Source of the DNA: Sulfuracidifex tepidarius | GTDB taxonomy: Archaea > Thermoproteota > Thermoprotei_A > Sulfolobales > Sulfolobaceae | Assembly (NCBI RefSeq): GCF_008326425.1 | Contig: NZ_AP018929.1 | Coordinates: 1,192,875-1,256,874 of the forward strand | Reading direction: 5' to 3' | Length of the DNA stretch: 64,000 nt | Shown here: piece after piece, positions 23,885 through 29,969 of the stretch | How positions within the stretch are numbered: position 1 is the stretch's first letter | Layout of the letters: the number at the start of each line of letters is the position of its first letter | The notes under the pieces: model-generated | Database searches by the model: none | Told to the model about the DNA's origin: nothing | What the model saw: the letters and a program-made list of their open reading frames with translations, nothing else | Translations under genes and position numbers: made by a program

Positions 23885-25986
23885 CTCTCTTTGAGGAAGA
23901 GAAGAAAATAGCCAGGGAAAAGCTGGACCGTGAACCGTCTGAGGCAGAGTGGAAAGTTTTGGACGCGGTTTGGTCAGAACATTGCTCTTACAAGTCCTCA
24001 AAGTTCTTCCTCCACAGTTTGCCGAGCACTGGAGAAAACGTGGTGATGAGTGTAGAGGACTGGCAGGACGCTGGAGCAGTAGACATAGGGGGAGGATACG
24101 CTCTAGTCCTCAAGGTGGAGAGCCACAACCATCCTTCGGCGATAGACCCTTTCAACGGTGCCGCGACGGGAGTGGGAGGGATAATCAGAGACATAATAAG
24201 CAAGGGAGCTAAACCCATAGCTCTTCTGGACATGATCAGGGTGGGAGAGCTCAATAAGGAAAGGAACAGGTGGTTGCTCAAGAACATAATCAGGGGAATA
24301 GGGTTCTACGGTAACAGCGTTGGGGTCCCCGTAGTCGGAGGAGAGATAGGCTTCGACGAAACCTATAACGATAATCCTCTTGTAGACGTCGCTTGCGTGG
24401 GCATAGTTAAGAAAGACAGGATTGTTCCAAGCGTCGTGAAGCGACCTGGTTTGAAGCTAGTCCTCACCGGGTTGACCGGTATTGACGGTTTGGGAGGAGC
24501 GTCCTTCGCGTCAAGGAGGTTAAGCGGAGAGGATGAAATAGGTGCAGTTCAAATAGCTGATCCTTTCGCCGGGAAAATTACCATCGATTCGACCCTCGAG
24601 ATATCAGGTAAAGCGGAGGCCATAAAGGACCTAGGAGGGGGAGGTCTTGCTGTTGCAGTAACTGAGATGGCTAACGGTCTTGGAGCTAGGGTTTATCTGG
24701 ACAGAGTTCCTCTCAGGGTGAAAGAAATGAGCCCTGAGGACATCATGATATCAGAAACTCAGGAGAGGATGCTCTTCGCAGTTAAGCCCGAACTTGTAGA
24801 CGAGATATGTGAGCCATTCACACGTGATAAGTACCCATGTACGGTTATAGGAGAGACCACAGGGGACGGAGTAATAAGGTTCATATACGAAGGCAAGGAA
24901 GTTGTGTCTTTGAAGAGTGAACTCCTGTTATCGCCTTCTAGATTCGTATGGGACTTCTCGTCCAGCTATAGGACATTTAACATGGAATTCCCTGCTCTTA
25001 CACAGGAAGCGATAAAGAAAGTCATTTCTCATCCTGACCTTGTAAGCAAGGAGTGGGCTTTCTCCCAATTCGATTATGAGGTAGGCACATCCACAATCAT
25101 TAAGCCGGGGGAAGCGGACGGCGCGGTAGTTTCTCTCCCTAACGGGAAATATCTCGCCGTCAAGGCTGACGCCAACCCGGACTTGTGTCAACATGACCCT
25201 TACGAATGCGGTAAAATGATATTTGCGGAGTCCTATCGGAATCTGGCTACCATCGGAGGGAAGGGTATAGTTGCCGTGGATCACTTACAGTTCGGAGATC
25301 CCAGGAAGCCTGAAGTTTATGGAGCTTTCATAGACTCCATCAGGGGGATATCCGAGGCATCTAGAGTGTTCAACGTACCGATAGTTGGAGGAAAGGTATC
25401 TTTCTATAATGAGAATAAGGAAGGTAAACCGATAAAGCATACGCCTATGATCGTGATGGCTGGAATCCTAGAACACGAACCGATCAGACCTAAGGTTAAA
25501 GCAGGAATGAGCATAGTTCATTTGGGGATAGCTAGGGGAGAAATGGGAGGCACTTTGGCATCTAAGGTTTTAGGTATAGATGGCGTACCTCAGAAAGCTA
25601 GACTTCATGAGGACTTACTAGCTTCAGAGATAGTGATGAACGGCAAAGAGCCCTTCATAAAGGACGTTTCTAGAGGAGGGCTGATGGCTTCGTTGTTTCC
25701 CGTGATAGTTAAAGGCCTTGGAATTAAGGTCAACCTCGATTCAATACGTTCTGACGTTAAAAGCGACTTCGTTAAGGTCTTCTCCGAGGGAAGCGGTAGA
25801 TTCATTGTAATTACTAACAACCCGAGGGAGATCATCGAAAAGGGAAGGGAGAAGGGAATCATAGCCCAGGAAATAGGTCTCGTGACCGATGAGTCTTTCA
25901 CCTTGGACATAGGGAAGAAGGTGGACCTAATGAAGGAAGTTAGAAACTACGAGAATTACTTGGAGGAGATGCTGAATGTTCCTTAA
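23881..25986 (+). CDS. purL: FGAM synthase large subunit PurL
   Basis: PurL converts FGAR to FGAM with ATP and ammonia from PurQ. At 701 residues it is the 'small PurL' type that needs PurS and PurQ. Motifs include DAVWSEHCSYKSSK near residue 22, VESHNHPSAIDPFNGAATGVGGIIRD, a repeated PurM-like half with IKDLGGGGLAVAVTEMA, and FIKDVSRGGLMASL. Start TTG 23881 overlaps the purQ TGA. It overlaps purF by 11 bp. Confidence 0.96.
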   Translation: MTLFEEEKKIAREKLDREPSEAEWKVLDAVWSEHCSYKSSKFFLHSLPSTGENVVMSVEDWQDAGAVDIGGGYALVLKVESHNHPSAIDPFNGAATGVGGIIRDIISKGAKPIALLDMIRVGELNKERNRWLLKNIIRGIGFYGNSVGVPVVGGEIGFDETYNDNPLVDVACVGIVKKDRIVPSVVKRPGLKLVLTGLTGIDGLGGASFASRRLSGEDEIGAVQIADPFAGKITIDSTLEISGKAEAIKDLGGGGLAVAVTEMANGLGARVYLDRVPLRVKEMSPEDIMISETQERMLFAVKPELVDEICEPFTRDKYPCTVIGETTGDGVIRFIYEGKEVVSLKSELLLSPSRFVWDFSSSYRTFNMEFPALTQEAIKKVISHPDLVSKEWAFSQFDYEVGTSTIIKPGEADGAVVSLPNGKYLAVKADANPDLCQHDPYECGKMIFAESYRNLATIGGKGIVAVDHLQFGDPRKPEVYGAFIDSIRGISEASRVFNVPIVGGKVSFYNENKEGKPIKHTPMIVMAGILEHEPIRPKVKAGMSIVHLGIARGEMGGTLASKVLGIDGVPQKARLHEDLLASEIVMNGKEPFIKDVSRGGLMASLFPVIVKGLGIKVNLDSIRSDVKSDFVKVFSEGSGRFIVITNNPREIIEKGREKGIIAQEIGLVTDESFTLDIGKKVDLMKEVRNYENYLEEMLNVP

Positions 25987-27331
25987 AGAGCATTGTGGAG
26001 TAATAGGGGTAAGCTCTCCTTTTCCCGTCCCGCTGAAGCTGACTTATGACGGACTTAAGTTGCTTCAACACAGGGGAGAGGAGTCCGCAGGGATCTCTTA
26101 CGTAGACTCAGGAAACCTGAAGCTCAATCGTGGTCTTGGCCTTGTAGAGGAAGCAATAGATCGTTCTCTTACGTACTTTAGCTCAACTTCATCCGTAGGT
26201 CACGTAAGGTACTCCACGTCCGGAGTTCCAGATGTAAGCGAAGCACAGCCTCTCAGTGACGGCAGAATCGTCGTTGCGTTCAATGGAACTATTACGAACT
26301 TCTTCAAGTTCGGGAAATATCCAAACGATACTACCTTCATCTTGGATTTCCTCTCCAAGGATTTAAAGGAGGATAGTTCCATGGTAGACGCAATCAAACA
26401 CTTCATTGACGTTGCAGACGGAGCTTACTCTCTTCTCGTGATGAACTCTGACGGCGAAATATATGCTGTGAGGGACCCGCATGGTTACAGACCTCTCGTA
26501 GTGGGAACTGTGGGCGGTTCTTTGATAATATCATCGGAGGATTCAGCGGTCAAGCAGTTAGGGGGTAAGAAGATAAAGGACGTGGAGCCAGGGGAAGTGC
26601 TAGGTATCAAGGACGGGGGAATCTTTTACGACGAGGTGGTGAAGTCAAAGCCAAAGACTATCTGTTCTTTTGAGTTCATATATTTCTCTCGTGCAGACAC
26701 TACGATTGACGGGAATCCGGTTTACCTGAGCAGGGTAAGGCTGGGAGAGATCTTAGCTAGGAGACATGGAGCTGAAGGTGACGTGGTAGTTCCGGTGCCG
26801 GACTCTTCACGTCCCATAGCCATAGGTTTCTCCAGAGAGAGCAAGATTCCTCTGGAGGAGGCACTAGTGAGGACAATCTCCTCCAAGAGGTCTTTCATAA
26901 TGCCGACTCAGCAGGCTAGGTTGGACGCCCTAAAGGAGAAGTTCGGAATAGTCGAAAGCGCAATTCGTGGGAAATCCATAATTCTAATAGACGATTCTAT
27001 AGTGAGGGGTAACACGATGAAGAGGCTCATATCGAGGCTGAGGGACGCCGGTGCTAAGGAGATCCACGTCAGGGTCGGTTCCCCTATGATAAAGTTCCCG
27101 TGTTACATGGGGATAGATTTCCCGAGTGTCAATGAGTTGATAGCGAGGTCGAAGAATGAAGAGGAGATCTCCAAGGAGATTGGTGCAGATTCTGTTCAGT
27201 TCTTAACTGTAGACGAAATGATATCAGCAGTGGGGATCTCCACCTTGTGTCATGCTTGCTTCACGGGGAGATATCCCCTTGAAGATAATTATAATTTTTC
27301 TTCGTTAGATAAAATTTTTGGTAAGGTGTAA
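25976..27331 (+). CDS. purF: Amidophosphoribosyltransferase
   Basis: PurF makes phosphoribosylamine from PRPP and glutamine, the first step of purine synthesis. The 451 residues keep the whole Ntn glutaminase site: Cys7 after a six-residue propeptide (EHCGVIGV), HVRYSTSG near 76 and FNGTITN near 102. The PRPP loop IILIDDSIVRGNTM and the flexible loop RSFIMPTQQAR are normal, and four Cys (230, 376, 425, 428) fit the 4Fe-4S cluster of the B. subtilis-type enzyme. This is the catalytically complete copy. Confidence 0.96.
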   Translation: MFLKEHCGVIGVSSPFPVPLKLTYDGLKLLQHRGEESAGISYVDSGNLKLNRGLGLVEEAIDRSLTYFSSTSSVGHVRYSTSGVPDVSEAQPLSDGRIVVAFNGTITNFFKFGKYPNDTTFILDFLSKDLKEDSSMVDAIKHFIDVADGAYSLLVMNSDGEIYAVRDPHGYRPLVVGTVGGSLIISSEDSAVKQLGGKKIKDVEPGEVLGIKDGGIFYDEVVKSKPKTICSFEFIYFSRADTTIDGNPVYLSRVRLGEILARRHGAEGDVVVPVPDSSRPIAIGFSRESKIPLEEALVRTISSKRSFIMPTQQARLDALKEKFGIVESAIRGKSIILIDDSIVRGNTMKRLISRLRDAGAKEIHVRVGSPMIKFPCYMGIDFPSVNELIARSKNEEEISKEIGADSVQFLTVDEMISAVGISTLCHACFTGRYPLEDNYNFSSLDKIFGKV

Positions 27332-27333
27332 AA

Positions 27334-28542
27334 ATGGCAGGATTAATAGGTATACTTGCATTTGATAAGATTTGGAATATAAATAAATTTTTATATTATG
27401 GATTAATAGGAGTTCAGCACAGGGGATATACGAGGTCTGGAGTATCGCTCCTAAGCGAGGGCGGTCTGATCAGGACAGCCAGATCTAGTGTAGCTCCAGA
27501 GGATCTGGAATTCGGAGAACTCGAAGGATGGGCTGGTATAGGATACGCTGGGACGTCGAATTACCCCATTCAAAGTGAGGGCATCTCTCTAGCTATAGAC
27601 GGAGTGATCAAAGACCAAGAGGTATTCGTCAAGGAACTGGAAAAGGATCCGGTAGAAGCTGTGAAGAGGAACAAGCCCACATTCACTTTCGTTGCGATCA
27701 CCAAGGACGGAAGGATAATAGCTTACAGGGACTACCTAGGTCTCAAGCCACTTTCAATAGGAGGTTTCGGCTTCGATATGGCTATAGTATCCTCAGAGAT
27801 GACCAGTATGAACGTAATAGGAGGAGAATTGAGGAGAGAGATAGAGCCCGGTGAAATGGTGATTATAGACAGGCTAAATGTGGAAAGTATGAAGCTCTTT
27901 TCGCCAGAGAAAAACTATTGCTCAATAGAGTACATCTATCAAGCCAGAATAGACAGCTTCGTTGACGAAAAGGAGATATATTCGCTTAGATTACGCATAG
28001 GAGAGAAGCTAGCTGAGGAATATCCTATAGAAGCAGACTGTGTAGTAGGAGTCCCCGACACCGCGTTACCGTTCGCTTTAGGTTACTCAAGGAAGAGTGG
28101 AATTCCTATGGATTTGGGTTTCACCAGAACTGGAAGTCCGATAAGAACTATGTTAGCCTCGGACGATTTCACTAAGGTCGTCGGGATCCAGCTGAAACTC
28201 AATCCGATAAAAACGGCATTCTTCAACAAGAGAGTAGTCCTGATTGACGATTCCATGGTAACAGGAACTACTTTGAAGAACACAGTGTTTAACTTGAGGA
28301 GGTTAGGTGCTAAAGAGGTACATATTCTCATAGGCAGTCCGAAGCTCACGTCTAAATGTCCTTACGGTGTTGCCGTACCCGAGGAAAAAGAGCTCATAGC
28401 TGCTAACCTGCCTGACGACGAGATAGCAAAGGTAATAGGGGCAGATTCTATACATTGGCTGTCTTTAAACGGTCTGTACTCAGCCATAGGTCACCGTGAC
28501 TTATGCGTGGGTTGTATGACAGGTAAGTATCCTACAAGGTGA
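27334..28542 (+). CDS. PurF paralogue lacking glutaminase residues
   Basis: The 402 residues align end to end with PurF, but the nucleophile Cys is replaced (MAGLIGI against EHCGVIGV), HVRYSTSG becomes GYAGTSNY, and NGT becomes DGV, so it cannot use glutamine in the usual way. It keeps the four Cys for the Fe-S cluster (196, 342, 391, 394), much of the PRPP loop (VVLIDDSMVTGTTL, with Arg to Thr) and part of the flexible loop (KLNPI). It probably partners PurF as a structural or regulatory subunit, or uses free ammonia. GGTG precedes the ATG; it starts 2 bp after purF. Confidence 0.88.
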   Translation: MAGLIGILAFDKIWNINKFLYYGLIGVQHRGYTRSGVSLLSEGGLIRTARSSVAPEDLEFGELEGWAGIGYAGTSNYPIQSEGISLAIDGVIKDQEVFVKELEKDPVEAVKRNKPTFTFVAITKDGRIIAYRDYLGLKPLSIGGFGFDMAIVSSEMTSMNVIGGELRREIEPGEMVIIDRLNVESMKLFSPEKNYCSIEYIYQARIDSFVDEKEIYSLRLRIGEKLAEEYPIEADCVVGVPDTALPFALGYSRKSGIPMDLGFTRTGSPIRTMLASDDFTKVVGIQLKLNPIKTAFFNKRVVLIDDSMVTGTTLKNTVFNLRRLGAKEVHILIGSPKLTSKCPYGVAVPEEKELIAANLPDDEIAKVIGADSIHWLSLNGLYSAIGHRDLCVGCMTGKYPTR

Positions 28543-28547
28543 AAGAA

Positions 28548-29969
28548 ATGAAGATATTAGTAGTTGGAGACGGAGCGAGAGAGAACGCTTTAGCTAAATC
28601 TCTCTCGTCACATAAGGTCTTCGCGTTATCCTCATACATTAACCCAGGAATAAAAGAGGTAGTGGATTCAACCCAAGGAGAGTACTTCCTCGGTGAGATT
28701 ACTCCTGAGGAGGTCAGGAAAATAATATCTAGAATTAACCCAGACATGGGGGTGATAGGTCCTGAGGATCCTTTGTTCAGAGGTGTTTCTGACGAATTCA
28801 GAAAGGAAGGTATTCCAGTGTTTGGGGCTAGCAAGAAGAACGCTAGGATAGAGGAATCCAAAGTCTGGGCTAGGTGGCTGATGTGGAAATACGAGATCCC
28901 AGGTAGGCTGAGGTATAAGGCATTCTCTACGATGGAGGAAGCCGCGAAGTTCATAAGCGAGTATGGAGGTTCCTTAGCTGTCAAGCCAGCAGGGCAAGCG
29001 GGAGGAAAGGGTGTAAAGGTAATAGCTGACATACAAGCTTACTTGTCGAGGGACAAAAGACAAGCTATGGCTAAGAGCGTTAACGAGATAGGTTCCTATT
29101 ACAACAAAGAGGGAGAACCCAAGATCATAGTAGAGGAGAAAGTGGATGGACCCGAATACACGCTCCACGCCCTCTCAGACGGTAGCACAATTCTTCCTCT
29201 TCCTTTGGCACAGGATTACAAGAACGCATATCAGGACGGGATAGGTCCAGAAACCGGGGGTATGGGGTCGATTTCCGGTCCAGGCTTCCTCCTTCCATTC
29301 ATAAATCAGGAGGAATATGACGGAACTTTTGACATAGTACGGAAGACAGTCTCGGCGGTGGAGAAGGAGACGGGAGAGAGTTATACTGGGGCTATAGCAG
29401 GGCAGATGATGCTGACCGGTCTTTGGGGTCCTACTGTTATAGAGTACTATTCACGTTTCGGAGACCCAGAAGCCTCAGCTATAATTCCGAGAATACAGGA
29501 CTTTGGCGATTTGATCGAGAGAACGGCAACCGGGCATCTGAGCAATGCCAAGTTGAGGGTAGATGAAAGGCCTTCCCTTGTGTGGGCTGTATCTCCTTTA
29601 GGATATCCCTTAGACAGGAAGCTAGCCTCAGGCCACAAGGTGTCGATTGACGTACCGAAAATCAGGGAGATCGGCTGCGACGTATTTTTCGGCTCTATAG
29701 CACTTGAGGAAAACTCGCTCGTCACTAAAGGCTCAAGGGCCTTAGAGTTAGTATGTCTGGGCGACTTCGAGGAGTCTAGGAGGAAGTTGATGAAGTCATT
29801 GTCTTTCATTGAGTCAGACGTTAAGTTAATTTATCGCAATGACATAGGCTCAACGATTCTAGAACAAGAGGAGAAAGCTGAGATCGTAAGGTATACTTAC
29901 ACCTCGAGGAAGAAGAGGGGAACTTTAGGGGTATCCGCTGACTGGTCTCCCAACGGTGGTCTTTGGTGA
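28548..29969 (+). CDS. purD: Phosphoribosylamine-glycine ligase
   Basis: PurD joins glycine to phosphoribosylamine. The ATP-grasp protein has KILVVGDGARENALAKSL at the start, KPAGQAGGKGVKVI, the DYKNAYQDGIGPETGGMGSISG loop, and EYYSRFGDPEASAI. At about 473 residues it is some 45 longer than bacterial PurD, with extra sequence in the C-terminal third. I prefer ATG 28548 because AAGGTG (28536-28541) is six bases upstream; a GTG at 28539 overlaps the previous stop. Confidence 0.95.
   Translation: MKILVVGDGARENALAKSLSSHKVFALSSYINPGIKEVVDSTQGEYFLGEITPEEVRKIISRINPDMGVIGPEDPLFRGVSDEFRKEGIPVFGASKKNARIEESKVWARWLMWKYEIPGRLRYKAFSTMEEAAKFISEYGGSLAVKPAGQAGGKGVKVIADIQAYLSRDKRQAMAKSVNEIGSYYNKEGEPKIIVEEKVDGPEYTLHALSDGSTILPLPLAQDYKNAYQDGIGPETGGMGSISGPGFLLPFINQEEYDGTFDIVRKTVSAVEKETGESYTGAIAGQMMLTGLWGPTVIEYYSRFGDPEASAIIPRIQDFGDLIERTATGHLSNAKLRVDERPSLVWAVSPLGYPLDRKLASGHKVSIDVPKIREIGCDVFFGSIALEENSLVTKGSRALELVCLGDFEESRRKLMKSLSFIESDVKLIYRNDIGSTILEQEEKAEIVRYTYTSRKKRGTLGVSADWSPNGGLW

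Follow-up and report, generated by a model that had tools for sequence, protein, structure and literature searches.

Background: PurF' in Crenarchaeota

In the Crenarchaeota that they studied, Brown et al. (Biol Direct 6:63, 2011, PMC3261824) found two PurF-like proteins and gave the name PurF' to the cluster of sequences that lack the N-terminal Cys. Genes of this cluster are grouped with other pur genes, and ammonia-dependent amination of PRPP was proposed as the function of their products, without a biochemical test or an analysis of residues (PMC3261824). Our search of the open literature found no biochemical characterization of PurF'. Likewise, the open papers searched contained no essentiality or complex data for the purF' gene discussed here.

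The committed step of purine biosynthesis is treated as the work of one enzyme, PurF, and yet nearly all purine-making members of the archaeal class examined here carry an ancient paralogue too. A map of its residues, together with two natural cases in which purine glutaminase is missing, makes its role directly testable. Judged by its sequence, the open reading frame (ORF) that we examined is the PurF' of Brown et al. 2011, and as such it has already been described and is not new. The present analysis adds to that work the wider spread in the phylum, the single origin, the dependence on PurF, the invariant PRPP site and the loss of further positions that are invariant in PurF.

The purF-purF' locus of Sulfuracidifex tepidarius

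The window, a 64,000-nucleotide stretch of DNA, comes from a 2.56 Mb single-contig genome (G000) that contains one PurF and one PurF' gene. It carries one run of purC, purS, purQ, purL, purF, the purF' ORF, purD and purM, in which the gene names other than purF were assigned by sequence and position. Thus, the purF' gene sits within a pur gene cluster, in a purL-purF-purF'-purD run. A contig search for related loci returned only one close relative, and the closest named relative found was Sulfolobus sp. UBA167 (92% identical).

All features of the window described below are on the forward (+) strand. The purF gene (25976..27331) encodes a canonical amidophosphoribosyltransferase of 451 amino acids in which all glutaminase residues are present. 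Its nucleophile is Cys7 (MFLKEHC, 25976-25996), and therefore a leader of six residues must be removed, as in PurF of the B. subtilis type, which also has a short cleaved leader. The stop codon of purF (TAA at 27331) is separated by a gap of 2 bp from the start codon of purF' (ATG at 27334), whose ORF (27334..28542) encodes a 402 amino acid, glutaminase-dead PurF paralogue, assigned by its place in the PurF' clade and by its AlphaFold2 model. The end of purF' overlaps by 4 bp with purD (28539..29969), which encodes the next enzyme of the pathway according to the ORF table, its sequence and its position. The NCBIfam purF model TIGR01134 matches PurF' with 224.5 bits (E 3e-66), which places its homology to PurF far beyond chance; the equivalog cut-off of this model is 350 bits, which is passed by the window PurF (385.2 bits) and missed by PurF'.

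The glutaminase domain

The N-terminal part of PurF' (27337..27861) is a predicted pseudo-glutaminase domain, shorter (about 175 residues) than its counterpart in PurF (203), and Pfam GATase (glutaminase) profiles gave no match to the window PurF'. The nucleophile Cys1 is replaced by Ala2 (27337..27339), and none of the 102 PurF' sequences in our comparison set (which also holds 130 PurF sequences) has a Cys there, most carrying a small residue (A/S/T/G/P). YAGTSN (residues 71-76, 27544..27561) stands in place of the HVRYST glutamine loop, with R73 kept in 0 of 102 PurF' sequences and Y74 in 1%. Similarly, DGV (residues 89-91, 27598..27606) replaces the NGT oxyanion motif, wherein N101 has become Asp or Glu in 89 of 102 representatives. 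With the numbering of mature E. coli PurF, which is used for conservation throughout, the glutaminase residues lost across PurF' are C1, R73, Y74, T76 and N101. Of the glutaminase-site residues Cys1, R73, N101, G102 and D127, the window PurF' lacks the first three.

AlphaFold2 models were made from alignments for both proteins of the window. The PurF' model has a pLDDT of 94.8 and a pTM of 0.91, and the PurF model has a pLDDT of 94.0 and a pTM of 0.92, with a TM score of 0.87 to B. subtilis PurF. The PurF' model matches B. subtilis PurF (1ao0) over its whole length (TM 0.88 by query), and its N-terminal domain matches Ntn glutaminase domains. This whole-length match suggests that the N-terminal domain of PurF' keeps the Ntn fold despite the loss of its catalytic residues.

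The PRPP site and the Fe-S ligands

The phosphoribosyltransferase domain (27862..28539; PF00156, E 2.9e-8) has an intact PRPP site. The residues R26, Y258, R275, P302, T304, R332, K349, D366, D367, S368 and G372 are invariant among the 102 PurF' sequences, and N351 (97/102) and T374 (100/102) are nearly so. The window PurF' has R271 at the R332 position, followed by M273 and L274 at the positions of F334 and I335 (28144..28155). Next come the flexible-loop motif KLNPI (residues 288-292, 28195..28209), whose K288 corresponds to K349, and the PRPP loop VVLIDDSMVTGTT (28234..28272), in which D366, D367, S368 and G372 are each present in all 102 representatives. Thus, the window PurF' carries the PRPP loop, the flexible-loop Lys and the Y258 that characterize PurF (EC 2.4.2.14). 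Within the PRPP loop, the R371 position is Thr in 57 and Arg in 34 of the 102 sequences. Thr is also the usual residue at this position in the PRPP motifs of type I phosphoribosyltransferases, and because it is the commonest state in PurF' as well, the change from Arg to Thr is not damage. In Arabidopsis GPRAT2, the residues equivalent to Y258, D366, D367 and S368 are required, as mutating them cripples the enzyme (PMC7056826).

PurF is looser than PurF' at K349 (91/103) and D366 (98/103), and N351 is Gly in 62 of 103 partner PurF sequences. The K[FY]G sequence in the flexible loop of the partner led us to consider a complementary split, wherein PurF would be losing its transferase function. 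We rejected this idea: K[FY]G occurs in only some members of the clade, and PurF keeps K349 at the frequency given above and D367, S368 and G372 in all sequences. In two loci from genomes with PurF only (L148 and L152), the flexible loop is longer (RKGPIRSFIEP-like) and K349 is absent, with Arg or Trp aligned in its place; in each of these genomes it is the sole PurF, and yet it must supply the activity alone.

There are also losses within the transferase domain of PurF', namely F259, F334 and I335, all of which are near-invariant in PurF. F334 is kept in 0 of 102 PurF' sequences, with Ala or Met there in 99, whereas F259 is replaced by Leu or Gln, and RNR has become [RS]TG. We take F334 and I335 to sit on the ammonia path of PurF, and all three residues are presumed to be near it. 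Overall, of the columns that are invariant in PurF, PurF' keeps (>=90%) 18 of 26 in the transferase domain and 5 of 17 in the N-terminal glutaminase domain, a difference with a Fisher p of 0.014.

The four Fe-S ligands of the window PurF', which are Cys196 (27919..27921), Cys342 (28357..28359), and Cys391 and Cys394 of a CVGC motif (28504..28515), align with the cysteines of B. subtilis PurF, and its sequence thus has the full ligand set of the Fe-S class of these enzymes. The first is Cys in 96 of 102 PurF' sequences and Ser in 6, and the other three are Cys in all 102, such that 96 of 102 have all four. The Ser representatives, with three Cys ligands left, belong to loci L047, L053, L056, L060, L062 and L071, where the partner PurF keeps all four Fe-S cysteines. 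A preliminary description of this DNA had placed a second PurF 2 bp after the active one and had listed the nucleophile Cys, HVRYST and NGT as lost and four Fe-S cysteines, a PRPP loop with Arg changed to Thr, and KLNPI as retained. The codon positions and the alignment agree with it on each of these points.

Distribution, descent and selection

A tree built with 233 sequences places the 102 PurF' sequences together in one clade with a support of 1.0, separate from PurF. This suggests a single ancient duplication that was followed by losses or transfers, two processes that the tree does not separate. In the Sulfolobaceae, the family to which the window belongs, PurF' is found beside purF in every sampled genome except one (G167), which lacks PurF as well. 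Across the class, PurF is present in 78 of 229 genomes and PurF' in 74 of those 78, whereas PurF' is found in none of the 151 genomes that lack PurF; these counts were tallied by hand, and related genomes are not independent, for which reason a Fisher test of the association should be read with caution. Among the four genomes with PurF and no PurF', one is 56% and one 77% complete, and the other two have purF at a contig end. One genome (G508) seemed at first to carry PurF' only, on the basis of a single strong hit, but the hit is a contig-cut PurF and this candidate was rejected.

PurF' also occurs in many further families of the Thermoproteota beyond this class, and other families have PurF only. 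Families f2, f3, f5, f6, f8, f9 and f10 each mix genomes that bear the pair with genomes that have neither gene, which points to repeated joint loss or gain. The two genes are usually neighbours, lying in the same order with a gap of at most 60 bp in 83 of 94 shared loci. However, in G006, G017, G018 and G047 they are widely separated or carried by different contigs, and therefore linkage alone does not explain their joint presence and absence. Loci L133, L136 and L140 have purF and purF' on opposite strands, in contrast to the tandem order elsewhere.

For pairs of PurF' genes with measurable synonymous change, dN/dS is mostly 0.03-0.08, similar to that of PurF; among the most closely related pairs the values are noisier and rise to as much as 0.21. 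These ratios indicate strong purifying selection on PurF'. One PurF' match (G342:C12:48231-49052) has an in-frame TGA, for which an assembly error, a frameshift and decay are all possible explanations. The preliminary description had suggested a selected role, which would have been called into question by a sporadic or decaying paralogue in relatives, and had asked whether the gene always sits next to purF. PurF' is instead widespread and under selection, and its adjacency to purF holds throughout the sampled Sulfolobaceae, the sole exception being the genome without purF. Together with the single ancient origin, the low dN/dS and the dependence on PurF, this gives a selected role good support. 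Both roles offered in the preliminary description, a hetero-oligomer partner and an ammonia-using phosphoribosyltransferase, are still candidates, and the second had already been published for this family (PMC3261824).

A lineage apparently without purine glutaminases

Two genomes of one genus, G132 (L063 9950-11344) and G152 (L070 9614-11005), have a canonical PurF whose glutaminase is dead (C1G, R73G, Y74D, N101D) and whose transferase residues are intact. Their pur cluster also has no purQ between purE and purL, which is where the congener G109 (L054) carries it. A genome search found no PurQ in either G132 or G152, and the same search found PurQ in 4 of 4 congeners tested. Both genomes are metagenome-assembled (79-83% complete) and they probably reflect one event, but local synteny indicates that the loss of purQ is real despite their incompleteness. 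PurQ was also not found in a few other genomes with PurF, and thus its loss alone is not unique to this lineage. Among them is G006 (single contig, 99% complete), which has no PurQ by PF13507 and whose PurF keeps its Cys.

If de novo purine synthesis is running in G132 and G152, it could hardly use glutamine nitrogen at the PurF and PurQ/PurL steps. Ammonia is a plausible substrate, and the two genomes are an apparent case of ammonia-only de novo purine synthesis. The PRPP sites of both PurF and PurF' are intact. Between G132 and G152, the transferase domain of PurF' is 84% identical (dN/dS 0.19) and that of PurF 70% (dN/dS 0.29), a contrast that comes from a single pair; in congeners with an intact Cys, the identity is 82% for PurF' and 82% for PurF. 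That PurF' is retained even where ammonia has to serve PurF as well speaks against a role of PurF' as no more than a backup for ammonia use.

Possible functions of PurF'

The evidence narrows the candidates to an ammonia-using or a regulatory partner of PurF. We tentatively favour over all rivals, at somewhat less than an even chance, the reading that PurF' is a partner subunit of PurF that uses PRPP independently of glutamine and whose second substrate is probably ammonia. After the ancient duplication, one copy would have lost its glutaminase and residues near the ammonia path, whereas its PRPP site was retained in full, as were the mobile loop and the ligands of the Fe-S cluster. This changed copy most likely acts together with PurF, probably as part of a mixed oligomer. 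It may form phosphoribosylamine from PRPP and from ammonia supplied by a source other than its own N-terminal domain, either free ammonia or a neighbouring PurF. This reading is supported by the invariant PRPP site, the lost glutaminase and the tie to PurF even where the genes are unlinked, with genomic dependence suggesting the partnership as such. Additional support comes from G132 and G152, where both PRPP sites are kept and PurF' is better conserved than PurF. Arguments on the other side are that a non-catalytic, PRPP-binding subunit would keep the same residues, that PurF is enough without PurF' in many Thermoproteota, and that no lineage was seen to have kept PurF' and lost PurF, as would be expected of a simple ammonia-dependent enzyme. 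Heat shortens the life of phosphoribosylamine and makes ammonia more available, such that feeding the first step with ammonia, or placing it in a complex, would make physiological sense. A broader proposal, which we consider unlikely, is a first enzyme with two feeds, glutamine through PurF and ammonia through PurF', combined with a whole switch to ammonia in the G132/G152 lineage, through loss of the PurF glutaminase and of PurQ, with both PRPP sites kept.

The main rival is a PRPP-sensing regulatory subunit. In mixed PurF/PurF' tetramers, PurF' would make no product but would tune or stabilize PurF, binding either PRPP or, at the C and A sites that overlap with it, AMP/GMP. Such a role would fit the observation that PurF' never occurs without PurF, whereas PurF occurs without PurF', and the predicted retention of the full PurF fold along with the Fe-S ligands. 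It would also fit the overlap, in PurF, between the PRPP site and the sites at which inhibitory nucleotides bind (PMC7056826). The evolutionary distances of PurF and PurF' correlate (r 0.82), as shared ancestry alone can bring about, and we rejected this mirror-tree correlation as proof of contact. However, at K349 and the two catalytic Asp residues, PurF' is more strictly conserved (102/102) than PurF, which is more than sensing seems to need, and we judge this explanation somewhat unlikely.

We regard as quite improbable the idea, put forward by Brown et al. 2011, that PurF' is a stand-alone ammonia-dependent phosphoribosylamine synthase, acting in parallel to PurF without contact. The intact PRPP site and dead glutaminase are as expected for such an enzyme, and E. 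coli PurF with C1A or C1S is cited in PMC3261824 as still using ammonia. Lineages with PurF' tend to have a GC-richer 16S rRNA (mean 61.9 versus 57.0%, uncorrected for relatedness), suggesting hotter growth. Heat raises the NH3 fraction. A strict adaptation to heat was nevertheless rejected, as the GC ranges overlap (63.3% in PurF-only G461; 55.5% in G255 and G341, which have PurF'). Against a stand-alone enzyme are the strict dependence on PurF and the retention of PurF' in G132 and G152, where it would be redundant once PurF uses only ammonia.

It is more doubtful still that PurF' moves phosphoribosyl to a different acceptor, such as another amine or a base. Positions on the acceptor side do differ from PurF and show a conservation pattern of their own, as seen for RNR, F334 and F259, but PurF' is always accompanied by PurF, is mostly located in the pur cluster beside purD, and is lost together with purine synthesis. 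Finally, the lost glutaminase residues might suggest a decaying relic of a duplication, to which we assign next to no chance and which we rejected, because the single well-supported clade of 102 sequences, their open frames and conservation, and a dN/dS like that of PurF contradict it.

Comparison with known systems

The window PurF' resembles the PurF' proteins of Crenarchaeota (PMC3261824) in the absence of the N-terminal Cys, often replaced by Ala, and in its location near purF and other pur genes. Mlab_0150 of Methanocorpusculum labreanum is likewise a PurF paralogue without the nucleophile (Ser in this protein), but it is described as the product of a recent lineage-specific duplication (PMC3261824) and not as part of the ancient PurF' clade. 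With the Fe-S PurF of B. subtilis (EC 2.4.2.14; 1ao0, 1gph), PurF' shares the whole-length fold, the PRPP site, the Fe-S ligands and the KL(N/S) loop. Unlike that enzyme, it has no nucleophile, glutamine loop or oxyanion Asn, and F259, F334 and I335 are replaced. Pairs of the HisZ-HisG type provide a precedent for an inactive enzyme paralogue that serves as the regulatory partner of a phosphoribosyltransferase. However, HisZ derives from HisRS and not from the transferase, and PurF' differs from HisZ in that it keeps a PRPP site.
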